DNA of 33,544 bases from Acidobacteriota bacterium (GTDB lineage: Bacteria; Acidobacteriota; Terriglobia; Acidiferrales; UBA7541), in contig QHYU01000173.1 of NCBI GenBank assembly GCA_003224235.1, positions 1-33,544 of the forward strand, given 5' to 3'. Shown piece after piece: positions 5,851-29,233 of this stretch. Under the pieces are notes generated by a model that made no database searches, was not told where the DNA came from, and saw only the letters and a list, made by a program, of their open reading frames with translations. The number at the start of each line of letters is the position of its first letter. Positions within the stretch are counted from its first letter, which is position 1. Made by a program: the position numbers and the translations under genes.

Positions 5851-5864
5851 AGTTTCCCCGTGCC

Positions 5865-7061: not shown

Positions 7062-7212
7062 GGCGCAATCCAGGAAGAGCGGCAGAGTAGCGATGGAGCT
7101 TTCTCCGGTTCGGATCGAGGCGGTGCGTTTTCACACCCGGAAACAGAATCCCCGCGTCGACAGATGCGGGCTGCATGCAATCGCAGATGTATTTCGGCGG
7201 GGCGCGGTCGGA

Positions 7213-8985
7213 TCAACGCAGCGATTCACCCTCGAGCGCAGAAGAGGCCGGCTTGCGGACGATGGTGTTGCCAAGCACCAGAGTGTTCATCTTGGTTCGT
7301 AGAAAGCATTCGATGGCTTCTTCCGGCTGGCAGACGATAGGTTCGTTCTCGTTGAAAGAAGTATTCAAGACTACGGGCACGCCGGTCAGGTTGGCAAACT
7401 CCCGAATCAGCCGCCAGTAGCGTGGATTGACGCTCCGGCTCACCGTCTGGAGTCTTCCCGTGCCGTCCACGTGCGTCGGCGCAGGAATCTCTTTGCGCTT
7501 CTCCGGCCGCACCGCGTAGGCTAGGGCCATGAACGGGGAAGGATAGGCCTTCTCGAAGTACTCACCGGTGGCCTCCTCCAATATCGATGGGGCAAAAGGA
7601 CGGAACACCTCGCGGTGCTTGATGCGGCGGTTGAGAATATCTTTCATTTCCGCCCGCCGTGGGTCCGCCAGGATGCTGCGATTGCCTAGCGCTCGCGGGC
7701 CCCACTCCGCTCGGCCCTGAAACCATCCCACGATCTTGCCGCCGGCGATTTCTTTGGCGGTTTCCTTGGCCAGTTGCTCTTCCGGCAGCTCCGTCACCTG
7801 AAACTCGGAGCTTGCGATCGAGCTACGTTCGAGCGCGGCGCGAATCTGCTGTTGGGAGTATGCCGGACCCCAATACGGATGTTCCATCACGAACGTCCGC
7901 GGGTGGCCGAGCACATGATGGTAGACGTAATACGCAGCCCCGACCGCCAGGCCGGCATCGCCGGCGGCGGGTTGAACGTACACCTGATCAAAAGGGGTCC
8001 GATCGAAGATCTTGCCGTTGGCTGCACAGTTGAAGGCCACGCCGCCGGCTAAGCACAGGGCCCGGTGGCCGGTACGCCGCTGAAGCGTCGTCAGCAGGTC
8101 GAAGAGGACTTCCTCGAGGCAAGCCTGCATGGTTGCAGCAGCATTGCGGTGACGCTGCTCGACCGGCTGGTCGGGGGCCCGGGTCGGCCCGAGGCGCTCT
8201 TCCAGGTAGGGGGAGAAAATCCGCCCGAGCTGCGGTGTTTTGTCGGCCTCGCGCCAGGTCATGTCGGGTCCGGTGTGGTGGTGCGAGAAGTAGGCGAGGT
8301 TCAAGCGAAAACCGAGCGCGGCGTTGCTTTGTAGAATGCGGCGGAACTCCTCCAGGTAGGCCGGCTCGCCGTAGGCGGCCAAGCCCATAACCTTGTACTC
8401 GTCGCCGAATTTCCAGAAGCCGAGGTATTGCGTGATTGCGGTGTAGTACATCCCGAGCGAGTGGGGAAACGCGACGGCGCCGTGCACGCGCAAGCGATTG
8501 CCCTCCCCGGTGGCCCACATCGTACTGGCAAAGTCGCCCAGCCCATCGGCAGAGAGCACGGCAGCTTGCTCGAACGGCGACACGAAAAAAGTGCTAGCCA
8601 GATGTGCCAGGTGATGCTCGACACGGTGATAGCGCGCCCGGATGCGCTGCGGGTCCACATCAAACGCCTGCTCTAGCGCCTCGGGGAGGCTGGTGAACCG
8701 GGCCAGTACCCTTACTCTTTCCCGGGCGAAGCGCGGCATGCGGACGGCGTAGAGCAACTTGGTGCCCAAGCGCGCCCAGGGATTGCGCGGAATGGCGATG
8801 TGATCCACGTCGTCGAGTGTGATGCCCGCTTCGGCCAGGCAATAACGGATGGCCGCGGCAGGAAATCCCGCCGCGTACTTCACCCGGTTGAACCGCTCCT
8901 CCTCCACGGCCGCGACCAAGCGACCATCACAGACGATCGCAGCCGAGGCGTTACCGTGGTAGGCGTTGATGCCGAGAATGTACAC
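7213..8985 (-). CDS. Carbamoyltransferase 2, NodU/CmcH/TobZ family
   Basis: This 590-aa protein is a second, divergent O-carbamoyltransferase. It opens with MYILGINAYHGNASAAIV, has the active-site region VEHHLAHLASTFFVSPFE (122-139), GDAGLAVGAAYYVYHHVLG, the C-terminal GRAEWGPRALGNRSILADPR, KHREVFRPFAPSI and VVLNTSFNENEPIVCQPEEA. Compared with carbamoyltransferase 1, the LNTSFN loop has NENEPIV instead of LFGEPLV and HLAS replaces HAAS, so the two belong to different subgroups and probably have different acceptors. The start is a GTG at 8985 preceded by GGGAGAG at a suitable distance. It begins 27 nt after the AsnB-1 stop, so the two are probably co-expressed. Confidence 0.93.
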   Translation of the reverse strand: MYILGINAYHGNASAAIVCDGRLVAAVEEERFNRVKYAAGFPAAAIRYCLAEAGITLDDVDHIAIPRNPWARLGTKLLYAVRMPRFARERVRVLARFTSLPEALEQAFDVDPQRIRARYHRVEHHLAHLASTFFVSPFEQAAVLSADGLGDFASTMWATGEGNRLRVHGAVAFPHSLGMYYTAITQYLGFWKFGDEYKVMGLAAYGEPAYLEEFRRILQSNAALGFRLNLAYFSHHHTGPDMTWREADKTPQLGRIFSPYLEERLGPTRAPDQPVEQRHRNAAATMQACLEEVLFDLLTTLQRRTGHRALCLAGGVAFNCAANGKIFDRTPFDQVYVQPAAGDAGLAVGAAYYVYHHVLGHPRTFVMEHPYWGPAYSQQQIRAALERSSIASSEFQVTELPEEQLAKETAKEIAGGKIVGWFQGRAEWGPRALGNRSILADPRRAEMKDILNRRIKHREVFRPFAPSILEEATGEYFEKAYPSPFMALAYAVRPEKRKEIPAPTHVDGTGRLQTVSRSVNPRYWRLIREFANLTGVPVVLNTSFNENEPIVCQPEEAIECFLRTKMNTLVLGNTIVRKPASSALEGESLR

Positions 8986-9012
8986 GCAGGGACTCTCCCA
9001 GTTCCGCGCAGA

Positions 9013-11001
9013 TCAACGCGGATGAGCGGCGGCCGCAGCCAGCCGTAGGTCCGCCACGAACTCGGTGTTGCTGCCTTGCAGGTGCCGCCGACACCATTCG
9101 TTCAGCACGTACAGGCTCCACGGGCGCGACCAACTCGTGCGTCCCGCTAAGAAATCGCCCCAGACGGCTTGCACGGCGTTCCTGTTCAAAATCGGCCGCA
9201 GCGCCGGCGCCAAATCGGCCAGCCCCGCAGCAACCTTTGCGCCGAGCGCCCCGTGCAGCCAGCGCTGCCAGGGAAAAGTAAAGGTGCGCTTGGGCTGGTG
9301 CACCACCTCGGCGGGCAGCAGTTTTCCCAGAGCATCCACCAGGAGCGCCTTGGGAGTTCCTCTCCGCCGCTTGACCGATTCGGGGAGCTGCGCCACAAAT
9401 TCCACCAGCCGGTGGTCCAGCAGGGGCACGCGCACCTCCAGCGAATGGCTCATGCTAACCGCGTCGGTGTCGCGCAGCAGGGTGTTGACCAGATACGACT
9501 GCGTCTCCAGGCAAGAGACACCTGTGAATTTGCCCAAGAGCACGGCTTGTCGCGCTGCTTCTTCCAGCCGCGCCCGCCAGAGCGACTCCTCCCGGGCTGC
9601 GGCGCCGTTCAGCAATGCCGCAACTTGCTCGCACGGGAAAACAGCTCGCGTATAAAAATAAGCGTGCGGGAGCGCGTCGGGGTTGCGCCACAAGGCTGCA
9701 AGTTTGCGCGCCGCGTCAGCATGCCTGGAGCCCTCGCGGAGCTTCACCACGATCGCCGCAGTCGCCGATCGCACGGCGCGCGGAACGAACCCACCCAGCG
9801 TGGCCAGGCGCGCAAGGTGCGGCGTCCAATGAAAGGTTCGATAGCCGCCGAAAATCTCGTCGCCGCCCAGCCCCGAGAGCGCCACTTTCAGCCCCGCCTG
9901 ACGGACCCCCCACGAGACGATGTACATGTTGATGCCGTCCATCGTGGGCTGATCGAGCGAACTCACCGCCTCTTCCAGCCGCGCCTGCATCTCTTCTCCG
10001 CTGAGCTGGAGCTCCTGGTGCTGCGTGCCGAAGCGCTCAGCCGTTTGCCGGGCGAGGTCCCCTTCGCTGAAGTCCTGCTCGGGGAAGACGACCGTAAAAG
10101 TGTGGACGTTTCTTCGCTGGCGGCTGGCCAGCGCGGCGAGCGCAGTGGAATCGATGCCGCTGCTCAGGAAAATCCCCAGCGGCACATCCGCGATCAGGTG
10201 GCTGCGAACGACATCTTCGAGCAGCGGCCGCAACTGTTCGGCGATCGCGCCGCGGGCGCGTTTGACCGGAGTCGGAGATGGCCGCGCGGCCTCGCCAATA
10301 TTCCAATAGGCTTTGCGGCGAATATCTGAAGGATGCACCGCCCTGCCGAATTCCCCCGAGGCCAGTGGAACAACCATCTGCCACCCCGGCGAGGATTCCA
10401 GCGCCTCCGCGGAAAGCCGCGGCGAGACCCATCCGCTTTCGAGCAGCGCACGAACCTCAGAGGCGAACAGTAGTGCGCCGTTTACCACCGCGTAGTAAAG
10501 CGGCTTGATACCCAAGCGGTCGCGCGCAAGGAAGACGCGCGGTGCTGCGTTGGGGTCAGGGCTGGCCGTCCTGGCGGCAGGTCCTTGCCGCAGGTCCAGC
10601 ACCGCGAATGCGAACATCCCTCGCAAGTGATCAACGCAGTCTTCGCCCCAGGTCTCATATGCATGGACGATGACTTCGGTGTCCGAGCGGGTGCGGAAAA
10701 CGTGCCCCCGGGCTTCGAGCGCCAGCCGCAACTCCTGAAAGTTATAAATCTCGCCGTTAAATACGACGGCGACATTTTGTTCTTCGTTGAAAACAGGCTG
10801 GTGGCCGCCGGGGAGGTCAATGATACTCAGGCGGCGCATCCCCACCGCCGCTCCCCACGGTCCGAGGCGCGCCCCGGGAGGAGTAACAAACAACCCTTCG
10901 TCGTCGGGCCCGCGATGCCACATAGCCGCCATCATCCGGCGGACGATGGACTCTGCCACATCGCTTCGCGCGCTCCCCACGACCCCACAGATGCCACACA
11001 C
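9013..11001 (-). CDS. Asparagine-synthase-type glutamine amidotransferase 1
   Basis: A 662-aa AsnB-family protein. Cys2 after the initiator starts the class II glutaminase domain (MCGICGVVG), which also has HRGPDDEG, FNGEIYNF and LARDRLGIKPLYY. The synthetase domain has the pyrophosphate loop FLSSGIDSTALAAL near residue 280, SSG replacing the usual SGG, followed by ALSGLGGDEIFGGY near residue 380 and EVRVPLLDHRLVEF. A short insertion rich in Pro and Ala (about residues 139-154) interrupts the glutaminase domain. In polysaccharide loci such proteins are thought to use glutamine-derived ammonia to amidate a carboxyl sugar rather than aspartate; the context supports that, but the sequence alone does not prove it. 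The start is GTG at 11001, fixed by the mature cysteine. Carbamoyltransferase 2 follows 27 nt later. Confidence 0.92.
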   Translation of the reverse strand: MCGICGVVGSARSDVAESIVRRMMAAMWHRGPDDEGLFVTPPGARLGPWGAAVGMRRLSIIDLPGGHQPVFNEEQNVAVVFNGEIYNFQELRLALEARGHVFRTRSDTEVIVHAYETWGEDCVDHLRGMFAFAVLDLRQGPAARTASPDPNAAPRVFLARDRLGIKPLYYAVVNGALLFASEVRALLESGWVSPRLSAEALESSPGWQMVVPLASGEFGRAVHPSDIRRKAYWNIGEAARPSPTPVKRARGAIAEQLRPLLEDVVRSHLIADVPLGIFLSSGIDSTALAALASRQRRNVHTFTVVFPEQDFSEGDLARQTAERFGTQHQELQLSGEEMQARLEEAVSSLDQPTMDGINMYIVSWGVRQAGLKVALSGLGGDEIFGGYRTFHWTPHLARLATLGGFVPRAVRSATAAIVVKLREGSRHADAARKLAALWRNPDALPHAYFYTRAVFPCEQVAALLNGAAAREESLWRARLEEAARQAVLLGKFTGVSCLETQSYLVNTLLRDTDAVSMSHSLEVRVPLLDHRLVEFVAQLPESVKRRRGTPKALLVDALGKLLPAEVVHQPKRTFTFPWQRWLHGALGAKVAAGLADLAPALRPILNRNAVQAVWGDFLAGRTSWSRPWSLYVLNEWCRRHLQGSNTEFVADLRLAAAAAHPR

Positions 11002-11310
11002 GCGATTACTCTACCTTGGATTGCTGAAAAGAGCTTCCCCTACCCGCAAGAGTTGTTTCCTCAGAGGCACGCATGTGATTCCCAGCCTGTGCTTGCCGTG
11101 CCAGCTCAAGGCGTAGCGACCGCATCGGCAAACCCCTTCAGATACCTCTCAGTGGAAATCTCCCAGCAGATTCCGTGCACCAAGGGAATGGCGGAGGCGA
11201 CGAGCAAGACATTGAGGAGACACCAAGAGAACTGAAGGAAGGGATAGCGCCTCCTATTCGCTTGCGCTCCGGAGTCAGCTCTCCCTCTTCCCACCCATTC
11301 GAAAGAGTGC
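11002..11310. other. 309-nt gap before AsnB-1
   Basis: Apart from the small membrane-protein frame at 11106-11294 and its possible frameshifted continuation to 11006, the gap shows no clear promoter. The minus-strand stretch near 11044-11075 (CTCTTGCGGG with GCCTCTGAGG upstream) weakly resembles part of the duplicated leader at 21822-21855, but the match is short. Confidence 0.4.
11106..11294 (-). CDS. Small single-pass membrane protein ORF, possibly a truncated gene remnant
   Basis: In the 309-nt gap between the glycosyltransferase stop (11311) and AsnB-1 there is a 62-codon frame with protein-like composition. It has a basic N-terminus (NRRRYPF), a hydrophobic stretch from FLQFSW to VASAIPLVHG and a soluble tail WEISTERYLKGFADAVATP. 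GTG at 11294 is an arbitrary start choice; AATAGGAGGCGC lies inside the frame rather than before a clear start. A single +1 shift at the stop would keep the frame open (ELARQAQAG onward) to a TAA at 11006-11008, only 4 nt before the AsnB-1 start. It may therefore be a frameshifted gene of about 97 codons or the 5' end of a deleted gene. No family is recognised with confidence. Confidence 0.38.
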   Translation of the reverse strand: MGRGRADSGAQANRRRYPFLQFSWCLLNVLLVASAIPLVHGICWEISTERYLKGFADAVATP

Positions 11311-12528
11311 TTATCGAAAGTGGCTTTCGATGCTTCCCGGAGCTCTCTCGGCGAGAACATGCGTATAGTAATCTTCCATACGGCCCCCCAATTCCTCCCA
11401 GGATATCTGCGCCACGACATTGTAACAGCCTGCTTGCAACCGAGAGTAGAGTGCCGTGTTGGCGGTAAGTTCTCGAAGTCCTTGTGTGAGGGCTCGCTCG
11501 CTGCGGGGGATCACGAGGCCGGCACCCTGGCTGACCAGCGCGCTGATCCCGCAGGATTCCGTCACGATGACCGGAGTCCCGCAGGCCATGGCTTCGGCCG
11601 CTGCGTTCGCGAAATTCTCATAGCGAGACGGCAGCGCGAATATATCCGCATCAGCCAGGGCAGCATTCTTATCGGCGCCATACAAGGGACCTGTAAATGC
11701 CACTCGGCGGTCGATACCCAGCGCTCGAGCCTTCTTCGCCAGCGTTTGCAGGTAGCCTGGTTCCCCCTCCGGGCCGGCGATGACCAGCCTGCCTGTGTGC
11801 GAAAAGGCGGTCGCGAATGCCTCCAGGAGGAGGTCTGCTCCCTTGCGGGGAATCAAGCGCCCGAAGAACAGAATCAATGGTTCGTTGGGCTCGATCTGCC
11901 ACCTTCTCCGAAAAGACCCGCGCGGGGGGAGTTGTCGGAATTCCTCTAGGTCCAGCCCGTTGTACCGCACTCGGACTCTTTCTGGCGGAAAGCCCGCGGT
12001 GATCAGCTCGCGTTGCTCCTGCTCGGAAGTGGCAATCAGCAATGACGCTCCTTGCAAGACGCGATTCCCAAGCAGCACGTGCCATAGACGCTTCAGCCAG
12101 AATCCGCGGTCAATTGGCCGAGTCATTCCCATTGGCTCCACTACATAGGGGATGTCCCGGCGGCGGGAAAGTGAGGCCACCGCTGGCCCCAGTAAATCGT
12201 AAAGACCGTAGATGTGCACCAGATCGAAATCCCCGAGGGAAGCTTGCGAAAAGCGGATCACATCAGGATTCAACGTCATGGCCCGATAGCGGGCCCGTGT
12301 GCGCAGATAGATCGCTTCCACCCCGTCCTGGCAGGATCGCCAACCCCAAGCATTCGGCTCCACCGACGCCGATAGACCAAGCGACTGGTCCAGGCCCAGG
12401 TCAGCCGTGAGAACGGTGACGTGGTGACCCCGTTGGACCAACGATCTGGCAAGGCCGCGCACCTTGAGGGCTGGACCGCCCATGTCGAGAAACGGATAGT
12501 AAGCCTGCGTGACTTTCAGAATCCTCAT
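11311..12528 (-). CDS. Family 4 glycosyltransferase
   Basis: A 405-aa GT-B glycosyltransferase. It begins MRILKVTQAYYPFLDMGGPA, with the glycine-rich acceptor loop, and has the GT4 donor-site features LILFFGRLIPRKGADLLLEA, VAFTGPLYGADKNAALADAD and the EX7E-like segment AAAEAMACGTPVIVTESCG. ATG at 12528 overlaps the TGA of the preceding methyltransferase as ATGA, implying translational coupling. A longer frame to 12558 is less likely because it lies wholly inside that methyltransferase. The donor and acceptor sugars cannot be inferred. The enzyme acts in the cytoplasm on the lipid-linked repeat unit. Confidence 0.92.
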   Translation of the reverse strand: MRILKVTQAYYPFLDMGGPALKVRGLARSLVQRGHHVTVLTADLGLDQSLGLSASVEPNAWGWRSCQDGVEAIYLRTRARYRAMTLNPDVIRFSQASLGDFDLVHIYGLYDLLGPAVASLSRRRDIPYVVEPMGMTRPIDRGFWLKRLWHVLLGNRVLQGASLLIATSEQEQRELITAGFPPERVRVRYNGLDLEEFRQLPPRGSFRRRWQIEPNEPLILFFGRLIPRKGADLLLEAFATAFSHTGRLVIAGPEGEPGYLQTLAKKARALGIDRRVAFTGPLYGADKNAALADADIFALPSRYENFANAAAEAMACGTPVIVTESCGISALVSQGAGLVIPRSERALTQGLRELTANTALYSRLQAGCYNVVAQISWEELGGRMEDYYTHVLAERAPGSIESHFR

Positions 12529-13247
12529 GGGGACGCAGCTTTTATAGCAGTAAACCAAACCTCATAAGCCAACCAGGCAAACCTCTGCACAGCCCACTGG
12601 TCGATCTGGCGCACAGCGGTGAATGCGCGCGCCGGCGGGAAGGAGAAGCGTCCGATGCTGAGTGGCACCGTGGCGAAAAGACTGTCACCCGCAATGCCGA
12701 GCAACTTCAAGCCCAGAGCTTGCAGATAGCGCCGGTAAGTCGCCGGCCGCCGGAAGTTCTGGATGAAACCTCGCTTGCGATGGTTTCTCAGTCGTACCGG
12801 CAAAGAGAACGGCGATAGCGCGTTATTCATGCTACAGACCAACAATCCGCCCGTCCGGAGCACTCGCACCATCTCCTGCAACGCGGCGAATTCATCGACC
12901 ACGTGCATCAGCACTCCAGTGCAGATCACCTTGTCAAACGATTCGGCCGCAAACGGCAGGTGGTAAGCAGTGCCGACCAATGCACGGGGCTGATAGGCGG
13001 CCAGCGAAGTCCGCAGTTCCCGAACCATGCTCTCGGATGGGTCCAGTCCCACCCAGCGAATCTTTGCTGCATCCAGGAGCGCGCGTGAGATCCAGCCGTA
13101 TCCGCAACCGACCTCCAGAACCCGGTCTGCCTCGCGAAGCTGCAAGGCTTGTACGGTCAGCGAGCGGTCGCGCTCGGATTTGAACTGTCGATAAGGACTT
13201 GAGGATTCGCGCCACCCTTTCCAGAATGTGGGCGTCCACTCAAACAA
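12525..13247 (-). CDS. Class I SAM-dependent methyltransferase
   Basis: A 240-aa methyltransferase with motif I RVLEVGCGYGWISRALL at residues 42-58, an acidic post-I WVGLDPSESMV, and the motif KVICTGVLMHVVDEF followed by MVRVLRTGGLLVCSMNN. These are typical of Methyltransf_11/25 proteins in polysaccharide clusters, where they O- or N-methylate sugars. The start is a TTG at 13247 preceded by AGGGGATCAG; no in-frame ATG gives a better N-terminus. Its stop overlaps the downstream glycosyltransferase start by 4 nt. The C-terminal third contains a hydrophobic segment around FATVPLSIGRFSF, which may be membrane-proximal. The substrate is unknown. Confidence 0.88.
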   Translation of the reverse strand: MFEWTPTFWKGWRESSSPYRQFKSERDRSLTVQALQLREADRVLEVGCGYGWISRALLDAAKIRWVGLDPSESMVRELRTSLAAYQPRALVGTAYHLPFAAESFDKVICTGVLMHVVDEFAALQEMVRVLRTGGLLVCSMNNALSPFSLPVRLRNHRKRGFIQNFRRPATYRRYLQALGLKLLGIAGDSLFATVPLSIGRFSFPPARAFTAVRQIDQWAVQRFAWLAYEVWFTAIKAASP

Positions 13248-19384: not shown

Positions 19385-20533
19385 TCAAAGTTTCGGCTCC
19401 GCGGGAGATACTGCGTGAGTTGGAAGCGGATCGGTCAAGAGAGCACTCTGGGGGCAATCGCTTGCCATGGTTTGGATGTAGCGCTCGGCGATGGCGTCCC
19501 AAGAGAAATGCTCCGCGTAGGCCCTCAGATTTCGTTGATGGAGCTCTCTCCACAGATCTTCTTCGGCCAGAACGCGCCTTAGGGCCTCTGCCAGCGCCTC
19601 ACGGTCGCCCTGGACGACTAACTCTACGCCGGCCTCCGTGATCGGGCCGCCGGTTTCAGAGCCGCGATAGCCGACGATCGGCAGCCCGCACGGAATCGCC
19701 GCAATTGCGCTGCTTCGCCGCGTCGAGATATGCCCCCGGACAAACAGCAGCACATCTGCTTCAGACAGAATTCGCTCGATATCCTTCGCGGGCTGAAGGC
19801 CGAGCACCGAAACTTCTACCCGCGTTCCGTCGAATTCCCGGCGCAGCATTGGCTCCGCCTCTTCCGAACCACGTCCCAGGACAACCAGACGCAAAGCTCC
19901 TACTCGGTTGCTGACGTGTTTCACCGCGTAGCCGATGTCAACGCACTCGGGGGCGATCCCGACGCCCCCGGTCACGCCAAACACGGTGACAGTTCTTGGC
20001 GTCCCTGGCCTCCGGCCATTGGATTTCGTGGAGAACCCAGCTTCCGAGATATTCGCTCCCACCGGAATAAATGTCGCCTTAGTCTGCGTGGGATTGAGCC
20101 AAGGCACCTGTTCCACGGGGACAGTCAGAATCGAGCGGTCGGCCCACCGGGAGGCCGTGCGCATCACCGCATATTGAAATGCAATGCGAAATCGGTCGAG
20201 TAACCGATGCGGCCGATCGTCGCGCACGTCATGGAACACCACCGCAGTTCTTACCCCCCGCGCTCTGAGCAGCGCGAGCACTGCAAGGACACCGAAAGGG
20301 AATCCGCGCCGCGACCAGGCCAGCGCTGTGTATTGCATCAAAACCCATTCTCCGCGCCACTTCCAGCTCTGCTTCCAGAGATTCCAGAGTTCTCGGAGCC
20401 ATCCATCTCGTTCCCAGAAAGACTCTGCAAGCTTCAATGTGACGCCACGACGGCGCAGCGCCTCCGCCAGCAGGGAACAATAGTCTCTCACGCCGTCGGT
20501 GGGCTCATCCCGCCGGCCTAAGAGCGCAACCAT
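19385..20533 (-). CDS. Family 4-like glycosyltransferase
   Basis: A 382-aa GT-B protein starting MVALLGRRDEPTDGVRDYC, with the acceptor-domain GVRDYCSLLAEALRRRGV. Donor-site features include TVTVFGVTGGVGIAPECVD, RLVVLGRGSEEAEPMLR, VEVSVLGLQPAKDIERIL, ADVLLFVRGHISTRRSS and AIPCGLPIVGYRGSETGGP. RGHISTRRSS replaces the more usual EGxxxxxxE segment, so it is a divergent member. The ATG at 20533 is chosen because homologous-looking sequence begins there; the frame stays open upstream to 20851, but that part overlaps the preceding methyltransferase and the duplicated leader. Ribosome-binding sequence is weak (CTCCGAGC). It is the second gene of the locus. Confidence 0.87.
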   Translation of the reverse strand: MVALLGRRDEPTDGVRDYCSLLAEALRRRGVTLKLAESFWERDGWLRELWNLWKQSWKWRGEWVLMQYTALAWSRRGFPFGVLAVLALLRARGVRTAVVFHDVRDDRPHRLLDRFRIAFQYAVMRTASRWADRSILTVPVEQVPWLNPTQTKATFIPVGANISEAGFSTKSNGRRPGTPRTVTVFGVTGGVGIAPECVDIGYAVKHVSNRVGALRLVVLGRGSEEAEPMLRREFDGTRVEVSVLGLQPAKDIERILSEADVLLFVRGHISTRRSSAIAAIPCGLPIVGYRGSETGGPITEAGVELVVQGDREALAEALRRVLAEEDLWRELHQRNLRAYAEHFSWDAIAERYIQTMASDCPQSALLTDPLPTHAVSPAEPKL

Positions 20534-20566
20534 GCTCGGAGCAGAATGATCCGCGTGATCCGCAGC

Positions 20567-20636
20567 TTGGGCCTTCACTCCCAAACCTCTTTTTGCCTGT
20601 GAACCGAGGATGCCCCGCGAGAAGAATATCTCAACC
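20567..20636 (-). repeat. Duplicated leader element, copy 1 (upstream of the GT4-like gene)
   Basis: About 70 nt in the 190-nt gap between the methyltransferase stop (20724) and the glycosyltransferase start (20533) closely matches 21778-21843. Shared blocks on the minus strand include GGGGCATCCTCGGT, CACAGGCAA, GAGGTTT and GGAGTGAAGGCCCAA. The element ends about 33 nt before the start codon. Differences are mostly small indels in A and G runs that do not keep one reading frame, so it looks non-coding. A short hairpin TTGGG/CCCAA around AGTGAAGG is possible. Confidence 0.7.
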
Positions 20637-20723
20637 CGTAGGCGTCCCGACGCGGCGCCGCATGGGGAGTTGTCCTGGAAGGAACGGGCCAACTTTGGGC
20701 TAAATCCAAGACTGTCCCTCGGC

Positions 20724-21755
20724 TCAGTGGTTCGGGCGTGAATGGTGCTCCGGAGGGGAGATGGGCTTCTTTCCTTTAGCATTGATTCCATTGAAGCCCA
20801 GTTTGATTTGGATCCCCTCGAGACCGGCTTCTTCGAACCACGCTCGCACATCCTCGATTCTCTGAGGGTGATCGTGAGCGGGCGACAACATGTCGAGCGC
20901 GCTCAGGATCTTCACTTCTTTGAGTTCCTCGTCGGTGTAATCAAGTTTCGGCTTATGTGAGAGTGGCCCAATAGGGATCAGAGCTGCGATGGCCTCGCCT
21001 GCGACAGGTATCTTGTAAAGTGCTTTCTTCAGCTCAAACAGCGGCGGGATGGTCCAGCGCAACACGGTGTGAAGGGTTTGGGGCTGCATCCGCCGGGCGA
21101 ATGGCCGCGCCCAGTATTTCAGCGGCGGTACGCCCTCGTGCCGCTGGTAAACATCCGCCGCGATTTCCCCGCCGCGTCGGAGAAAGGGAATCAAGCTCAT
21201 AAAGGCCTGCTTGACGTTGGGGCAATGTTGCAGCACGCCCATGCAGAAAATCTTGTCGAAGGCCTCTCGACGCAGAGGGATCTTGTAGATGCTCGCCTGA
21301 AAAATGTGAACCTTTGCCGCGTCGGTGTTGTTCTTGAAATTGGCTTCAATGGCGCTGCTCAGGTCAAAGGAGAAGACTTCAGCGCCGGTCTCCAGGGCGA
21401 TTTGGGTGAACCGGCCCATACCGCATCCGGCCTCCAGAACCCTCTGGCCTTCGAGGTGTTCGGGCCAGCCGGTCGTGGCATAGAAGCGCTCTCGGCTGAG
21501 ATCGTTCCGCATAAACTTGTCAAGCTGCAGCTTGTCGAATTGATTCCACTGGTAGCCGAGGGACGCCGCATATTCGTCGGAAGAGACGAAGCGGGGCATC
21601 GAACGCAAGATCGGGAAGGTCGCCGGGCACTGGGTGCACCTCAATTGACCTTCCTTGATCTTTCCGTTTTGAGAGCCGCCTTCCTCGCGTCGCGCTACGC
21701 GAAGCTCCGCCCCGCATTCGGGGCAAGCAAACACATCCAGCGCTTTAAGGTCCAT
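20724..21755 (-). CDS. SAM-dependent methyltransferase with N-terminal Trm112-like zinc ribbon
   Basis: A 343-aa protein, first gene of the polysaccharide locus in transcription order. Residues 1-50 form a zinc-ribbon-like module with CPECGAEL (Cys11, Cys14) and CTQCPATFPI (Cys40, Cys43). The Rossmann methyltransferase domain follows with RVLEAGCGMGRFTQIAL (105-121), an acidic VFSFDLSSAIEAN and FDKIFCMGVLQHCPN. The C-terminal part (WARPFARRMQPQTLHTVLRW and beyond) is typical of the related methyltransferases seen in glycan clusters. ATG at 21755 is preferred; a GTG at 21776 would add seven residues and touches the repeated leader. Upstream lie the second leader copy and the inverted repeat at 21865-21894. 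It may methylate a sugar or a lipid-linked intermediate; the substrate is unknown. Confidence 0.88.
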   Translation of the reverse strand: MDLKALDVFACPECGAELRVARREEGGSQNGKIKEGQLRCTQCPATFPILRSMPRFVSSDEYAASLGYQWNQFDKLQLDKFMRNDLSRERFYATTGWPEHLEGQRVLEAGCGMGRFTQIALETGAEVFSFDLSSAIEANFKNNTDAAKVHIFQASIYKIPLRREAFDKIFCMGVLQHCPNVKQAFMSLIPFLRRGGEIAADVYQRHEGVPPLKYWARPFARRMQPQTLHTVLRWTIPPLFELKKALYKIPVAGEAIAALIPIGPLSHKPKLDYTDEELKEVKILSALDMLSPAHDHPQRIEDVRAWFEEAGLEGIQIKLGFNGINAKGKKPISPPEHHSRPNH

Positions 21756-21777
21756 TTCCAGGTGTGTCCCCGGCACG

Positions 21778-21843
21778 TTGGGCCTTCACTCCAAACCTCT
21801 TGCCTGTGGACCGAGGATGCCCCCGCAAGAGACTACTGCAACC
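21778..21843 (-). repeat. Duplicated leader element, copy 2 (upstream of the first methyltransferase)
   Basis: This is the counterpart of 20567-20636, in the same orientation and ending about 23 nt before the ATG at 21755. It carries GGGGGCATCCTCGGTCCACA, GGCAAGAGGTTTGGAG and TGAAGGCCCAA in the minus-strand sense. Relative to copy 1 it has one extra G in the G-run and lacks two A and one G. Its position in front of the first gene of the locus suggests a cis-regulatory RNA or promoter-proximal element; no known riboswitch class was recognised. Confidence 0.7.
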
Positions 21844-21864
21844 TGAGAGGCAGGCCAAAGCGGC

Positions 21865-21894
21865 GTTGCAAATGAAAGTGTCGTGGATTGCAAC
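21865..21894. promoter_or_regulatory. Inverted repeat GTTGCAA-N16-TTGCAAC, candidate operator
   Basis: Two perfect 7-bp half-sites separated by 16 bp (23-bp centre spacing, close to two helical turns) lie upstream of the leader of the first polysaccharide gene and downstream of the osmC stop. The geometry suits a dimeric DNA-binding protein. No regulator gene for it was identified in the window. Confidence 0.4.
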
Positions 21895-21941: not shown

Positions 21942-22358
21942 CTACCCGCCGTCGGCGGGATTGATTTCGTAGTGGAAGGCGATGGGCGCGGTTTTGCGGA
22001 GTGTGGCGGCCACCGAGCAGTACTTGTTCTCGCTTAGCTCAATGGCGTCGCGCACCGCTTTCTCGTCGAGTTGTCCGCGCAGCTTGTAGACGATTTCCAG
22101 CTTCACCCACACCGTGGGCGGCTCTGCGGCGCGCTCGCCGCGCACCACCACCTCGAGCGATTCCAGTTTCTGGCGCTTCTTGGCGAGGATGCCGACCACG
22201 TCGGTAGCGGTGCAAGCGCCCAGGGCGACCAGCAGCATTTCCATTGGCCCGGGCGCGGCGTTCGATCCCCGGTCGGAATCGAGTGGCATGGCGTGGCCCG
22301 AAGGAGTCAGGGCGAGGAATTGCTCTTGGCCGACCCATTTGACGCGTGCAGTTTGCAT
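21942..22358 (-). CDS. OsmC/Ohr-family thiol-dependent peroxidase
   Basis: A 138-aa protein of usual OsmC length. The two redox cysteines are visible: Cys49 in LVALGACTATDV and Cys114 in SENKYCSVAATL, with Glu40 in GPMEMLLVAL near the active site. Family members reduce organic or fatty-acid hydroperoxides in the cytoplasm using a Cys disulfide cycle. The ATG at 22358 is preceded by GCGGAGGCCTG. It stands alone, 155 nt after the esterase stop and 165 nt or more before the polysaccharide genes, so it is probably not functionally part of either neighbour. YhfA-like OsmC proteins of unknown role are the closest alternative. Confidence 0.93.
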   Translation of the reverse strand: MQTARVKWVGQEQFLALTPSGHAMPLDSDRGSNAAPGPMEMLLVALGACTATDVVGILAKKRQKLESLEVVVRGERAAEPPTVWVKLEIVYKLRGQLDEKAVRDAIELSENKYCSVAATLRKTAPIAFHYEINPADGG

Positions 22359-22513
22359 CAGGCCTCCGCGAAGAAAGATTAGAAGTTGTCAGTCGAAAGT
22401 GGAAACGGAATCAGTCTAATGTCGAAAGGCAGCGAGGGGAAGAGTCAAACGGTATCGGGCTGGCAGAGTCGAAGAGTGGACAGTCACCAGTCGGGAGTTG
22501 AGCCTGTACCTGA

Positions 22514-23407
22514 CTAATGGTTTGACGGACCGAGGCCGAAGGCGCGGGAATGAAACTGGAGCGAAGCAGGCAGGTGCTCCGCGAAATAGGGCCAGTTGTG
22601 ACCGCCGGGGTAAAGGTGAAATTCGTGGGGAATGCGGCGCGACGCAAGCAGGTTGTTAAGCGCCTTGGCGCCCGCATGGAAGCCGAAATTATCCTCGGAG
22701 CCGCAATCAAAGTAGATCTTCAGTCCTGCGAGGTGAGCGGTACGCGCCAACGTAAGCGGGTTGTTGCGTTCCCAGAAGGCGCGATCGGGCGGTGAGCCGA
22801 ATACGTCGCCGAGAATTCGTAAGCTGGCAGTCTGCCCGGAATCGGCGAGCGCGACGGCGGGAAGTTTCTCGATCAGAGCGGCGCTGTGCGCGCTCACGGA
22901 TCCGAATAACTCTGGATGGCGGAAGGCCAGCCGCAGCGCGCCATATCCGCCCATCGAAATCCCTGCAATGCCGCGGAATGCGTGACCTGCTCGTGTCCGA
23001 TAGCGGTTTTCGATGAAGGGCAGAAATTCCTGCAGAAAGAAGTCCTCATAACGGCGACGGCCATCGCGCGAGTTGATGTAGAAGTTTGAATCTCCCGCTG
23101 GCGTCACGATCAAGAATTCACCGAGCTGATGTTGCTCCCAGAGGTCTTCCGTGAGATTCCACGCGCCCGAATGAAGAAACATCTGCTCGTTGTCGCCCAG
23201 GCCATGGAGAAAGTAGAGCACGGGATAGCGGCGAGTGTTTTCCCCATCGTAGCCGGGCGGTAGGAGAACGCAGTAAGCGACCGCGTGGCCCAGAATCTGG
23301 CTCCGCAGGGAAAGGCACTCGGCGCGACCCGTGGCATGCGCGGGACGCGCGAAGGCGAGACACAAAAAAACCAATGCCGCCACCCCGGCGCGCTTGAGTC
23401 TATTCAT
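22514..23407 (-). CDS. Secreted alpha/beta-hydrolase esterase (esterase D/FrmB-like)
   Basis: A 297-aa protein with a Sec signal peptide (MNRLKRAGVAALVFLCLAFA, cleavage likely after AHA at about residue 25). The hydrolase domain has YFLHGLGDNEQMFLHSGAW (oxyanion region), the nucleophile motif GISMGGYGALRL with Ser151, an acid at about Asp239 in FDCGSEDNFGFH and His270 in GGHNWPYFAEHL. This order fits the esterase D/S-formylglutathione-hydrolase and antigen-85-like fold. As an exported protein it more likely cleaves acyl esters outside the cytoplasm than formylglutathione. Its ATG overlaps the last 8 nt of the MacB-type permease gene (ATGAATAG), implying translational coupling with the transporter. 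Confidence 0.9.
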   Translation of the reverse strand: MNRLKRAGVAALVFLCLAFARPAHATGRAECLSLRSQILGHAVAYCVLLPPGYDGENTRRYPVLYFLHGLGDNEQMFLHSGAWNLTEDLWEQHQLGEFLIVTPAGDSNFYINSRDGRRRYEDFFLQEFLPFIENRYRTRAGHAFRGIAGISMGGYGALRLAFRHPELFGSVSAHSAALIEKLPAVALADSGQTASLRILGDVFGSPPDRAFWERNNPLTLARTAHLAGLKIYFDCGSEDNFGFHAGAKALNNLLASRRIPHEFHLYPGGHNWPYFAEHLPASLQFHSRAFGLGPSNH

Positions 23408-24764
23408 ACCGCAGGGCCTCGACGGGGTTGAGGCGCGCCGCGCGCGATGCCGGATAGAGCCCTGCGGCGAGGCTCACGATGATGGCGAAGGCGATTGCTC
23501 CCAGCACAAGCCACCACGGCACGGAGAAAACATGTGCGGGCGGCAAGTTTTGCCGCCGGAGATAAATATTAGTGCCCCACGTAACGGCTCTCCCGATCAG
23601 CCAACCGAAGCCCACGCCGAGGGTTCCGCCCAGCAATCCCATAACGCCGGCCTCTACGAAAAACAGTTGTTTGACGTCGCGGTCGGCCGCGCCCAGGGCC
23701 TTGAGTACTCCGATCTCACGCCGGCGCTCGAGAATGGCCATCGCCAGCGTGTTGATGATGCCGAGCGTGGCGACGGCCAGCGCCAGGCTGCCGAAAATCG
23801 CGAGCAGAAGATCAAAAACGGCGAAAAAGAGGCGGAGATTGCGCGTGGCGTCGAGCAAGGAAAAGGCGGAGAAGCCCATGTTTTTAATGGCGGTTTCGAT
23901 TCCTTCCACCTGCGAAGGGCTCTTCGCGCGCACCGTCAAGCTCGCGTAGCTGGGCTTGCCTTTCGTTCCGCGCACGACGTCCCGCAGATCGTTCACCTGC
24001 GCGGCCCTCAGCGCTGCCGCGACCTCGAGCGGGATCAGCACTCGGCCGCTGCCGAAGCCACCAAAGCCAGCCGCCGGTTCCGTCTCCACGATGCCGGCGA
24101 TGCGCAGTTTCTTCTCTCGCGGCACGATCGAGAACCCGGAACCCGCGCCGTCATCGCTATCGCCGTTGACCGGATCGCTCACTCCAGTCTGGGCTCCAAG
24201 CGCTTGGCGTTCCGCGTAGCGCAGCACGAGTTCCTCGCCGAGTAAAGTGGAAGGATGGTCGGATAATTCCTTCGCGAATTCGATCTGTAGGATGGCCTCG
24301 TCGGCGGTGGGACCGGAAAAAAAGCTGCCCTGTATCCCGTCGAATGCGCCGTTTCCACGCGCCGATGCGGGCATGCCCGCCACCATCGTCGTATAGGGAT
24401 TGCCGGCATAACGCACTTCCGTGAAGAAACGAATCTGCGGATACACCTCCACTACGTTTGGCAGGCGTTCCATTTCCTGGCGAGCTCCTTCATCCAGCGG
24501 ACGCGACGCGCGCGAAGGCGAAGAATTCGCCGGCCTGGGACGACCAAGACCGCGCAGGTTCGTCCGCGGCGTCACGACGACCGTGTTAAACAGACCGGAC
24601 TGAGAGAGGCGCTTCGAGGCAAGCTCCTGCAGGCCCACGCCGAGAGAAAGCATCGCCACGAGCGAAGCGACACCCACGGCGACGCCCAGCGTGGTCAGCG
24701 AGTTCCGCAGGAGAGCCTCACGCAGATTGCGCAGGGCAAGTTCCCCGAGGTCGCCGGCTTTCAT
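23400..24764 (-). CDS. ABC transporter permease, MacB/FtsX (type VII) family
   Basis: A 454-aa permease. One N-terminal membrane segment (about 22-44, TTLGVAVGVASLVAMLSLGV) is followed by a large MacB-like periplasmic domain from about 60 to 300 and three C-terminal membrane segments: VFDLLLAIFGSLALAVATLG, VMGLLGGTLGVGFGWLIG and LVLGAIAFAIIVSLAAGLY. ERRREIGVLKALGA and the final LYPASRAARLNPVEALRYE are diagnostic of the FtsX domain. Such proteins work by mechanotransmission and do not carry substrate through the membrane; the LolCDE and MacAB systems are relatives. No MacA-type adaptor or outer-membrane channel is adjacent. The ATG overlaps the ATPase stop by 4 nt, and the esterase gene overlaps its end. 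Confidence 0.92.
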   Translation of the reverse strand: MKAGDLGELALRNLREALLRNSLTTLGVAVGVASLVAMLSLGVGLQELASKRLSQSGLFNTVVVTPRTNLRGLGRPRPANSSPSRASRPLDEGARQEMERLPNVVEVYPQIRFFTEVRYAGNPYTTMVAGMPASARGNGAFDGIQGSFFSGPTADEAILQIEFAKELSDHPSTLLGEELVLRYAERQALGAQTGVSDPVNGDSDDGAGSGFSIVPREKKLRIAGIVETEPAAGFGGFGSGRVLIPLEVAAALRAAQVNDLRDVVRGTKGKPSYASLTVRAKSPSQVEGIETAIKNMGFSAFSLLDATRNLRLFFAVFDLLLAIFGSLALAVATLGIINTLAMAILERRREIGVLKALGAADRDVKQLFFVEAGVMGLLGGTLGVGFGWLIGRAVTWGTNIYLRRQNLPPAHVFSVPWWLVLGAIAFAIIVSLAAGLYPASRAARLNPVEALRYE

Positions 24765-25468
24765 GGTTTCACCCCGTCGCTGACCAGTCTGCCGTCCGCT
24801 ACAGTGGCGATTCGATCGGCGAATCGCTCGCCGAGAGGGCGTTCGTGCGTGACCAGCACAATCGTCATCCCCAGCGATTGCTGGATCTCGCGCAACAACA
24901 GCAGGATTCCTTCGCCTGTCGCGCTGTCCAGATTGCCCGTGGGCTCGTCCGCGAGAAGAAGAGCGGGGCGGTTTACCAGGGCTCGCGCCAGCGCCGCCCG
25001 CTGCTGCTCCCCGCCGGAAAGTTCACTGGGGCGATGGCTGAGCCGTTTTTCCAGATGCACCCGCTCCAGCGCTTCACGCACCCGCCCCGCGCGCTCGCTG
25101 CGTTCCACCTCCGCCAGGCGCAACGGCAGCTCGACATTTTCCTCCAGCGTCATTCGCGGAAGCAGGTTGAAAGCTTGAAAGACCATGCCCACGGTCCGGC
25201 TGCGATATCGGGCCAGCTCGAGCCGGCTCATCTCAGACAGATTGCGGCCGTGCGCAAAAATGGTCCCTGAGGTCGGGCGATCCAGGCCGGCCATCAGGTT
25301 CAAGAGCGTCGACTTCCCTGAACCGGAACTTCCCAGCAGCGCCAGGAACTCCCCTGCACAGACTTCGAGCGTGACATCATCCACCGCGCGGATCAGCGCG
25401 GAACCCATCTGGTAATGCCGCGAGACCCGCTCGGCGGAGACAGCGACACCATCACTTGCCGGTATCAT
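24761..25468 (-). CDS. ABC transporter ATP-binding protein, LolD/MacB family
   Basis: A 235-aa ATPase with Walker A GSSGSGKST (46-54), Q-loop MVFQAFNLLPRMTLEENVEL (Gln98), signature ELSGGEQQRAALARAL (149-164), Walker B LLLADEPTGNLD (170-181) and the switch His in VLVTHERPLGERFADR. The length and the MVFQAFNLLP and NLD features are those of the LolD/MacB/FtsE group that pairs with FtsX-type permeases. The ATG at 25468 follows GAGGGGCG. It overlaps the permease start by 4 nt, so the ATPase, permease and esterase genes form one operon. Its substrate cannot be inferred. Confidence 0.94.
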   Translation of the reverse strand: MIPASDGVAVSAERVSRHYQMGSALIRAVDDVTLEVCAGEFLALLGSSGSGKSTLLNLMAGLDRPTSGTIFAHGRNLSEMSRLELARYRSRTVGMVFQAFNLLPRMTLEENVELPLRLAEVERSERAGRVREALERVHLEKRLSHRPSELSGGEQQRAALARALVNRPALLLADEPTGNLDSATGEGILLLLREIQQSLGMTIVLVTHERPLGERFADRIATVADGRLVSDGVKP

Positions 25469-25549
25469 CGCCCCTCGATGGTACTACGCATCAAGCGCGG
25501 TCCGGGTTACGGCCTGCCATGGTGCCGATGTTGTAAGGCTGAAAAGCGT

Positions 25550-25599
25550 TCTGCCCCCCAAATGGAAAGCTGCAGGAGAAAAAACGCGGGGGGGGGAGA
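25550..25599. other. C6/G9 long hairpin between signalling gene and ABC operon
   Basis: TCTG followed by six C (25554-25559) faces nine G followed by AGA (25588-25599), able to pair over about nine bases around a 28-nt loop. It lies 25 nt past the stop of the GGDEF/HD-GYP gene and about 80 nt before the ABC operon. It may act as a transcription or mRNA boundary. The nine-G run is also a likely place for length errors in sequencing. Confidence 0.35.
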
Positions 25600-25623
25600 A
25601 ACAAGACAGCAAGAAGGGCAAAA

Positions 25624-28600
25624 CTATCCGGCGTTGGCGGGAGCGCGCTGCGATGACGACGCGGCCTCGAGAACAGGGTACGGCAGGAGGCGCATCTTCC
25701 GGATAAATACCTCCACCAAGTCCGGGTCAAACTGTGCGCTGTCGCAGCGCTCGAGCTCGGCAAACGCCTCTTCGGCGGTGCGGGCCTTCTTGTACGTGCG
25801 GTCCGAGGTAATCGTGTCGTAGGCGTCAGCGATGGCGAGGATGCGCGCGCCCAGTGGGATCCCGCTGCCGGTCAGGCCATCGGGGTAGCCCGAGCCGTCG
25901 AAGAATTCGTGGTGGTGCTTGACCATCTGCTGCACACGGCCGAGGCCGCGGACCGGCTCGAGGATGCGGGTGCCGTATTGGACGTGCGTCTTCATCGTCT
26001 CCCATTCGTCGGGGTTGAGCGGCCCGCTCTTGTTCAGGATGGATTCCGGGATGCCCACCTTGCCAATGTCGTGGAGCACGCCGGCCAGGCGCACCTCCTC
26101 GACTTCCGCTTCGCTGAGCCCGACCGCCTCGGCCAGGAGCGCAGCGTAGCTGGATACTTTTTGCGAATGGCCTTGCGTGTAGTGGTCCTTCGCGTCGATG
26201 GCAAAGGCCAGCGAAGTGATCGTTTCGATCACAGCAGGCGGCAGCGCCCTAGGTCCCTCAGCTCCATGCGGGGCAGCTTCTGAAGTTCCGTGAGTGCCGG
26301 CCGAGGAGTTTCCGCCTGCTTCCGGCATGTCCGCCGGGCTAGCGGACAGCGCCTGGGTGAACTGCTCCAGGCGCTTATAGATCTCCTCGAAGGCCTCAGG
26401 GCCGGTGGAAAACAGCCGCTTGAGTGTAACGCCGAGGTAGGCTTCCAGGACGTCGCGTTTCCACTTCTTGGTTTCATCGGGGTCGAAGTGCTCGGCGGTG
26501 GAAACGGTGTTGCCTCCCTGATGCTTGGAAAGGTACATCGAGGAGTCGGCCACCTGGATCAACTCCTGGGGCGTGGAGCCGTGCATCGGAAAGCTGGCGA
26601 TGCCGAAGCTGCCGGTAATATTTTTCTCGCGCAGCAGAGGGTCCGAACAGATCCAGGAGCGCAGCTTGGAGGCGAGCTGCTGGGCCTGCTCGATCGTGGT
26701 CTCCGGCATCAGGATGACGAACTCATCGCCGCCGTAGCGTGACACCACGTCTGAGCGGCGGCAGTTCTGCTCCAGGATGTGGCCGACGCGCTGCAGCACC
26801 AAGTCGCCTTCCAGGTGTCCGAAGAAGTCGTTGACGAATTTGAAGCGGTCCAGGTCCATCAGCACCAGCGCGAACGAACGGCCAGCGCGTGTCGAGCGCT
26901 TCCATTCGGCCGATAGCGCTTCCATGAAGAAGCGGTGGGTCTTGACGCCGGTGAGGCCATCGGTGATGGCCTGCTCCTGAGCCTTCTGGAAGGTGAGGGC
27001 GTTGTGCAGGGCGCTGGAGATCAGGTCCGCCAGGGTCCGCAGCAGGCTCTCTTCTTCGGAGAAGTCGCACGGCTCGGAGGTTTCGACGTAGAGCACCCCG
27101 TGCAGTTGGTCCGCGTAAACCATAGGCAGCGCGATAGCGGAGACTGAACCCGGCAGCACCGGGCCTCCTGCTGCATCCGGGGCGGCAAGATCGCGCACGG
27201 CGATCAACTTCCCCCTGCGTGCCACCTGGCCCACCAATCCTTCGCCCAGCGGGATGCGTTGGCCCAGGGCGCCACGCCGTCGGCCGGCTTCGGCCTGGAT
27301 CACTACTTCCTTGTTGGAGTAGTCGAGCAGGGCGATGCCGATGTGGTCGTAGGTGAGGAACTCCTCAAGCTCAGCCGCAATGTTGGCCAGCATCTCATCG
27401 GAGTTCAGCGTCGTGATGGCGTTGCGCGAGATGTTGTTCAGCAGCGTAAGCTGCCGCGACTTGGTTTGCTCTTCGCGGAACAGCCGCGCGTTTTCCAGCG
27501 CGATCCCGGCCTCGCTGGAGAGCACGCGCATGAACTCGAGGTGGCCTTCATCGAAGAGCCGCTCCTGCAGGCTGTGCACCGCCATGACGCCGATGGCGCG
27601 GCCACGCTGCATCAGCGGCACGCCGCAAAAGCAGCCCACCTGCCGGAGCGGATTCGCGCCCAGCTTGCTCGCCTCCTCGGCAAAATTCTCTCGGATCAGC
27701 AGCGCCTGTTGAGTGCGGATCAGGTACTCAGTCAGGTGGTTGCCGGCCGGGCGCGAGCGCTTCGGCAGGCGTGTCCCGTCGGTCACCTCGAGCTCGAAGC
27801 GGATTTCTTCCCGTGCAGGGTCGTGAAAGGCGATATAGAAATTGCTAACGTCGAATAGCCTCCGCATCTCTGCGTAGATCTTCTCAAACAGAGCGTCGCT
27901 TTCCAGCGTCGAGCTGAGCGCGCGCCCGATCGCGTTCAGGATGTGCAGCTCTTCCGAGCGCCGCGCGGATTGCTGGATCAAATAGCTGTTTTCGACAGCC
28001 ATGCCGATCTGGTGTCCCAGCGCCAGCAAAAGGCGCAGCTCGGCGGGCGTGAATCGCCGCGTATCAGGAGTGCCCAGCAACAGCACGCCGAAGGCCTGCT
28101 CCTTGGCTTGCAGGCTGATGGCGACTACGGTGCGCAGGCATTGCTTCACCGCCAGTTGCCGGAACTTTCGGAAGGCTTCTTCTCGGTCCAACGCCACCCA
28201 GGCGGAGTCACGCGTCAAGTCGCGAAAAACCACCAGGCCGCCCAGGCGCGTTACAAGGCTGACCAGGTGGTCATCCAAGCCCTCTTCCTGTGCCGCCCCA
28301 CAGAAAGAGTCGCTCAGCCCTGCTGCCACCAGCGAAGTGGGTCCCTGTGGGTCCCCGTGATGAAGGAAAAGCGCGCCTGCCGGAATGCGCACTACGCTCA
28401 ACACGCGATCCAGCGTTTGGGACAACATCCTTTGGATTTCGCCGCCAACGAAGCTCGAGGTTGCCAGATTCAGGTTTGAGAGTGCCAGCATGTTGCGCTC
28501 GACACGCCGTTTTTCTTCCTCGTAGAGCGCCATCACCATCAACACGGCGGCGAACAGTTGCGGGACAATCGCCAGCAGCCGCAGACCGGCTGCGAGCTGC

Positions 28601-29094
28601 GACGAAAGCCGGCCGCCGAACAGCGGAGCAACCAGCATCCCTCCCCACACCAGGAACGCCGCTGCCAACAGCAGGTCGGCCATGGTTTCCTGCCTGCGGC
28701 CTTCCTGCCAGAAAACGCGGGCCGCGCCAAGTAAAACCAGCGCCACGCCGAGATCCGGAGAGACGCTGACCCAGTGCAGGTGATAGCTCACCGCCCAGAC
28801 CATAAATAGCGCCCCGGCCGCCGCGAGCGGGCGCACCCAGGGGCGGGCCTGTGCGTACAGCTGCGCGGTACAGAAAAAAAGCAGCGCCGCCGCAGCCAGC
28901 AGCCAATGGTCCAGCGCCGTCTGCCAGGGCGCCGCTGCCATCCAGGGCTCCAGTGCCAGGCTCAAGTAGCTCAGTGCCACCAGGCTCCAGCCGCACGTCC
29001 ACAGCAGCAGATAGAGCTGGCGTTTCAGCGTGTACACGTAGGCGAAGAAGGCGGCGGTGAAAGCCGCGGCTGACAACAGCCCCAGAGCGATCAT
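25624..29094 (-). CDS. Membrane GAF(x3)-GGDEF-HD-GYP cyclic-di-GMP signalling protein
   Basis: A very large sensor of about 1156 aa. The first 195 residues carry about seven hydrophobic segments, so sensing may occur in or through the membrane. Three GAF-like modules follow at about 220-370, 390-545 and 560-705. The GGDEF domain (about 725-880) has an intact SRYGGDEFVIL active site and an RRSD inhibitory RxxD site five residues before it. The HD-GYP domain (about 955-1150) has LHDIGKVGIPE, HHEFFDGSGYPDGLTG and IADAYDTITSDRTYKKA, all intact. The protein could therefore both make c-di-GMP from GTP and degrade it. ATG at 29094 is preferred to a TTG at 29112. A strong candidate promoter lies at 29293-29322. 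Polysaccharide synthesis is a common target of c-di-GMP, but a direct link here is inference. Confidence 0.93.
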   Translation of the reverse strand: MIALGLLSAAAFTAAFFAYVYTLKRQLYLLLWTCGWSLVALSYLSLALEPWMAAAPWQTALDHWLLAAAALLFFCTAQLYAQARPWVRPLAAAGALFMVWAVSYHLHWVSVSPDLGVALVLLGAARVFWQEGRRQETMADLLLAAAFLVWGGMLVAPLFGGRLSSQLAAGLRLLAIVPQLFAAVLMVMALYEEEKRRVERNMLALSNLNLATSSFVGGEIQRMLSQTLDRVLSVVRIPAGALFLHHGDPQGPTSLVAAGLSDSFCGAAQEEGLDDHLVSLVTRLGGLVVFRDLTRDSAWVALDREEAFRKFRQLAVKQCLRTVVAISLQAKEQAFGVLLLGTPDTRRFTPAELRLLLALGHQIGMAVENSYLIQQSARRSEELHILNAIGRALSSTLESDALFEKIYAEMRRLFDVSNFYIAFHDPAREEIRFELEVTDGTRLPKRSRPAGNHLTEYLIRTQQALLIRENFAEEASKLGANPLRQVGCFCGVPLMQRGRAIGVMAVHSLQERLFDEGHLEFMRVLSSEAGIALENARLFREEQTKSRQLTLLNNISRNAITTLNSDEMLANIAAELEEFLTYDHIGIALLDYSNKEVVIQAEAGRRRGALGQRIPLGEGLVGQVARRGKLIAVRDLAAPDAAGGPVLPGSVSAIALPMVYADQLHGVLYVETSEPCDFSEEESLLRTLADLISSALHNALTFQKAQEQAITDGLTGVKTHRFFMEALSAEWKRSTRAGRSFALVLMDLDRFKFVNDFFGHLEGDLVLQRVGHILEQNCRRSDVVSRYGGDEFVILMPETTIEQAQQLASKLRSWICSDPLLREKNITGSFGIASFPMHGSTPQELIQVADSSMYLSKHQGGNTVSTAEHFDPDETKKWKRDVLEAYLGVTLKRLFSTGPEAFEEIYKRLEQFTQALSASPADMPEAGGNSSAGTHGTSEAAPHGAEGPRALPPAVIETITSLAFAIDAKDHYTQGHSQKVSSYAALLAEAVGLSEAEVEEVRLAGVLHDIGKVGIPESILNKSGPLNPDEWETMKTHVQYGTRILEPVRGLGRVQQMVKHHHEFFDGSGYPDGLTGSGIPLGARILAIADAYDTITSDRTYKKARTAEEAFAELERCDSAQFDPDLVEVFIRKMRLLPYPVLEAASSSQRAPANAG

Positions 29095-29233
29095 ACTTTC
29101 ATGTGTGATCAAGTTAGGTCCGCCACTCGGAACCGGGATGGAGGATCACAACAGTCCCTTGCAGTTGTGCCGTCTGTTCCCGGGTCGGAATGTTGGCGCC
29201 CATGGCCAGAAAGTTCGCCAGTTTCCCGCGAAG

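Follow-up and report, generated by a model that had tools for sequence, protein, structure and literature searches.

A direct repeat at the start signals of two neighbouring polysaccharide genes in an Acidobacteriota bacterium, most likely left by local operon rearrangement

Elements shared by the 5' ends of bacterial operons have been described in several forms. RfaH/ops (JUMPstart) elements lie in the leader regions of Gammaproteobacterial polysaccharide operons, while UpxY/LoaP leaders are found in the 5' leaders of polysaccharide or long biosynthetic operons; except for RfaH-type single cistrons, the NusG paralogues adjoin their targets (PMC7819879). Locally duplicated operon 5' regions, produced by tandem duplication or gene relocation and comprising promoter, leader or ribosome-binding site, form adjacent direct repeats in front of neighbouring genes, are private to a lineage and include the ribosome-binding site and start codon. 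The locus analyzed here shares the leader position of the first two systems and all of the listed properties of the third. However, it differs from RfaH/ops in that ops is absent, two copies occur in one operon and no NusG paralogue is encoded in the contig; from UpxY/LoaP in having no adjacent paralogue gene and no terminator-like hairpin in the repeats; and from simple duplicated 5' regions in that a core is conserved far above its flank and the gene behind the second copy is out of frame.

The window, i.e. the whole stretch of 33,544 nt that was analyzed, makes up a complete contig of a 4.57-Mb genome. As originally predicted, two similar segments are present in the same orientation, as leaders before a glycosyltransferase (GT) and a methyltransferase (MT) gene. 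Both genes are on the minus strand, and thus the leaders must be read on that strand. The features of the locus are as follows.

19385..20578, minus strand: GT4-type glycosyltransferase (Pfam PF13692/PF00534), likely start GTG 20578 inside R1
20567..20616, minus strand: core repeat R1, upstream of and overlapping the likely glycosyltransferase start
20586..20590, minus strand: Shine-Dalgarno sequence AGAGG in R1, 7 nt before the GTG
20617..20660, minus strand: diverged 5' extension of R1, 26/44 identical to the R2 flank, above shuffles with loose scoring
20724..21755, minus strand: methyltransferase (Pfam PF08241), ATG 21755, alternative start GTG 21776
21745..21789, minus strand: 14-codon frame opened by the R2 GTG (21789), VKAQRAGDTPGNGP-stop, overlapping the methyltransferase ATG
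21778..21823, minus strand: core repeat R2, upstream of the methyltransferase
21796..21800, minus strand: Shine-Dalgarno sequence AGAGG in R2, from the anti-Shine-Dalgarno analysis
21824..21868, minus strand: diverged 5' extension of R2, from its alignment to the R1 flank
21942..22358, minus strand: OsmC-family protein (Pfam PF02566), an old neighbour after which the glycan cluster begins

The repeat itself is real, although not the even, nearly end-to-end match of about 70 nt that had been proposed. It totals about 95 nt and consists of a 50-nt core, in which 45 of 46 aligned positions are identical and one 3-nt and one 1-nt indel occur, and a 5' flank of about 45 nt matching at 26 of 44 positions; the two identities differ significantly (Fisher p = 4e-6). 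When one copy was compared with the 4.57-Mb genome by BLAST, the other was recovered at 90% identity (E = 3.4e-11), and the two intergenic regions, aligned locally, scored 81, whereas the best of 1000 dinucleotide shuffles reached 30. The near flank was matched or exceeded by 1 of 1000 shuffles in local alignment with loose scoring and by 0 of 2000 in global alignment, and did not exceed shuffles under strict local scoring. At the 3' end the similarity stops abruptly, right after GGCCCAA (GTG AAG GCC CAA), four codons inside the glycosyltransferase frame opened by the GTG. We also considered a coding remnant and rejected it from the sequence: the R1 frame is open, but the substitutions are not protein-like and R2 is frameshifted.

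The distances from the repeats to the annotated ATG codons, 33 and 23 nt, agree with the original description, yet the core holds an in-frame GTG that makes a better glycosyltransferase start. GTG 20578 shares the glycosyltransferase frame, 15 codons before ATG 20533, and the predicted anti-Shine-Dalgarno duplex reaches -6.5 kcal/mol at the AGAGG of R1 vs -3.3 kcal/mol at ATG 20533. Homologues of the glycosyltransferase carry short variable N-terminal tails ahead of a conserved [IV]ALLGRRDEPTDGV motif, which makes the longer, GTG-started protein plausible. Judged from these sequence features, GTG 20578 is probably the true start, and the start of this gene would then need correction. Since the core includes a Shine-Dalgarno sequence and a start codon, part of what had been called a leader is ordinary translation-initiation sequence. 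Behind R2, the methyltransferase does not share the frame of the repeat's GTG; its N-terminus shows a weak Trm112p-like match. As a separate observation, positions 13089-13123 and 21408-21442 form a 35-nt direct repeat at 77% identity in the SAM-binding motif region of the cluster's two methyltransferases, a coding similarity.

Searches for additional copies were uniformly negative. Within the genome itself, no third copy was found above chance by BLAST, by a covariance model or by a short pattern with two mismatches. No copies were found in 100 relatives, in a DNA search of 395 further genomes from the phylum, in a covariance-model search of 94 genomes from the order, by IUPAC pattern searches or in phage and plasmid records. 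A GTDB scan with the most conserved 18-mer, GCATCCTCGGTNCACAGG, returned 52 public contigs from many phyla; none has the second half of the core, and we therefore regard them as chance matches. The repeat is also missing from the 29 glycosyltransferase-homologue loci read in relatives, the closest homologues being only 53-54% identical and thus too distant to be expected to show the earlier arrangement, and neither a single repeat before the glycosyltransferase nor a repeat-GT-MT intermediate, as expected of a pre-duplication state, was found in any relative. The two copies thus lie 1.2 kb apart and nowhere else in what was searched. The original prediction had tied its regulatory reading to further copies upstream of glycan genes; there are none in the genome or in the relatives, and on those terms the reading as a regulatory family fails. 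A search of the literature on similar duplicated leaders gave nothing useful.

The same distribution bears on a small mobile repeat, MITE-like or cassette-site-like, inserted twice. One gene is indeed flanked by direct repeats, but with only two genomic copies, without terminal inverted repeats and without counterparts in the phages, plasmids and relatives searched, such an origin appears extremely improbable. Two further candidates were rejected by eye: an integron attC site, whose core-site motifs do not follow the required order, and a sigma-54 site, whose spacing is unfit in both copies.

Gene order around the repeat varies between lineages. In the window, the methyltransferase precedes the glycosyltransferase on the minus strand, each behind a spacer of about 190 nt. 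Family homologues of both genes sit in the same kind of cluster, which in relatives contains a carbamoyltransferase, glycosyltransferase, methyltransferase, ligase-like membrane protein, asparagine synthase and further glycosyltransferases. Most relatives with both genes (G039, G027, G017 and G123) have the glycosyltransferase first, and in three of these a spacer of about 70-120 nt separates the two genes; the methyltransferase comes first in G004, about 10 nt from the glycosyltransferase, and a same-genus genome, G001, has the methyltransferase while the glycosyltransferase was not found. The 190-nt spacer containing R1 is specific to the window. R2 sits at the edge of the glycan cluster, next to osmC. 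In the two relatives examined, G001 and G003, osmC homologues have no glycan cluster alongside, and at the DNA level the window resembles G001 only as far as the end of osmC; the cluster has therefore either arrived in this lineage or been lost in both others. In the window, an esterase and an ABC transporter pair (22514-25468) separate osmC from the GGDEF/HD genes (21942-29112 overall), which in G001 and G003 are close neighbours of osmC; beside the glycan cluster, the site differs here in a second respect.

In our view the repeat most likely goes back to a local operon rearrangement, not to a new family of regulatory RNAs. More specifically, we somewhat favour a duplication of the 5' end of the polysaccharide operon through lineage-specific rearrangement, with the core kept by its use in initiation or by gene conversion. 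The duplicated unit would have comprised the untranslated leader, the Shine-Dalgarno sequence, the GTG start and the first four glycosyltransferase codons, and the rearrangement would have placed the methyltransferase ahead of the glycosyltransferase to give the order R-MT-R-GT, where R is the repeat. For instance, R-GT-MT could have been duplicated in tandem and could then have lost the first glycosyltransferase and the last methyltransferase. Each copy would then serve as a ribosome-loading region for the gene behind it, and the 14-codon frame of R2, which overlaps the methyltransferase start, may provide translational coupling to that gene. The private, adjacent copies that include start signals argue for this duplication, as do the stronger Shine-Dalgarno pairing of the in-frame GTG, the end of similarity four codons into that frame, the gene order in most relatives, the window-specific R1 spacer and the osmC loci of G001 and G003. 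Against it, about 20 nt upstream of the Shine-Dalgarno sequence (GCATCCTCGGTYCACAGG) are as conserved as that sequence itself, more than ribosome binding alone would call for; the gene behind R2 does not continue the GTG frame, and the relatives provide no R-GT-MT intermediate. If the duplication is correct, the locus illustrates a way in which glycan operons can be reshuffled together with their start signals.

The uneven divergence of the repeat points either to constraint on the initiation region or to gene conversion, which two sequences cannot separate. Under the duplication reading, the core may have been maintained by translation initiation or homogenised by conversion while the upstream part drifted. 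A stricter alternative is that recent gene conversion homogenised the core between two old copies, with no function beyond that. Recombination is possible between direct repeats 1.2 kb apart, and identity rises sharply, from 26/44 to 45/46, over about 95 nt; however, 50 nt would be a short conversion tract, and its 3' boundary falls together with the initiation region, so that we consider conversion by itself quite unlikely.

With respect to known RNA classes, the repeat matched no Rfam covariance model at the gathering threshold. The sole weak match, Burkholderiales-2 (E 1.3, 17 bits vs a cut-off of 67.9), falls outside the core. The description of a reused non-coding 5' element holds, with the core far more conserved than the flank, while its assignment to an RNA leader, attenuator or ops kind finds no support. 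No terminator-like hairpin was found on the coding strand of either repeat, and a scan for sigma-70 promoters found none (0.4 expected).

A private cis-acting leader RNA would explain the conserved block differently: a core hairpin closed by a GGGC...GCCC helix would hold the GTG in its stem and gate both genes in step. The two ends of the block are complementary to each other, and the helix has a probability of about 0.9 in both copies when folded in isolation, but below 0.15 with flanking sequence on both sides, and the individual copies do not fold better than their shuffles. In the two-copy consensus, both bases are exchanged in two outer pairs (GC to CG) and a single U-G becomes C-G; the marginal column-shuffle p of 0.04-0.06 comes from only two sequences, without homologues, and a window chosen after the fact. 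We consider such an RNA unlikely. Its fuller version, a lineage-specific leader of about 55 nt present twice per operon, whose hairpin would gate two start codons and whose 14-codon frame would couple to the methyltransferase, is slightly less likely still. If the leader were regulatory, it would represent a private two-copy control element, for which the present evidence is weak.

An RfaH/ops-like site had also been suggested. The ops consensus GGCGGTAGNNT had no match with at most one mismatch in either repeat, and its total in the window equals chance. NusG-family matches occur only on contigs C90, C170 and C93, with none on C212, the contig of the window. Besides the best-matching protein, the genome thus encodes two NusG-family proteins, on C170 and C93, and that on C170 adjoins a tyrosine kinase and a chain-length gene inside an exopolysaccharide cluster. 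These extra proteins speak for an antitermination site of the ops, LoaP or UpxY kind serving a specialised NusG paralogue; but neither is in this contig, no copy of the repeat lies near them, and paralogues of this kind, RfaH-type single cistrons apart, neighbour their targets. Such a site is therefore very unlikely here.

The C170 paralogue is a candidate UpxY/LoaP-like system for its own operon. That cluster (locus L119 on C170, approximately 5000-12700) comprises, besides the paralogue, an export protein, a chain-length protein, an ATPase, a tyrosine kinase and a sugar-phosphate transferase. Its ATPase (L119:7388-9805) contains a long repetitive linker of EPEAVAGSGMEVP and KVGVSEPPL units between the ATPase part and a LysM-like end.
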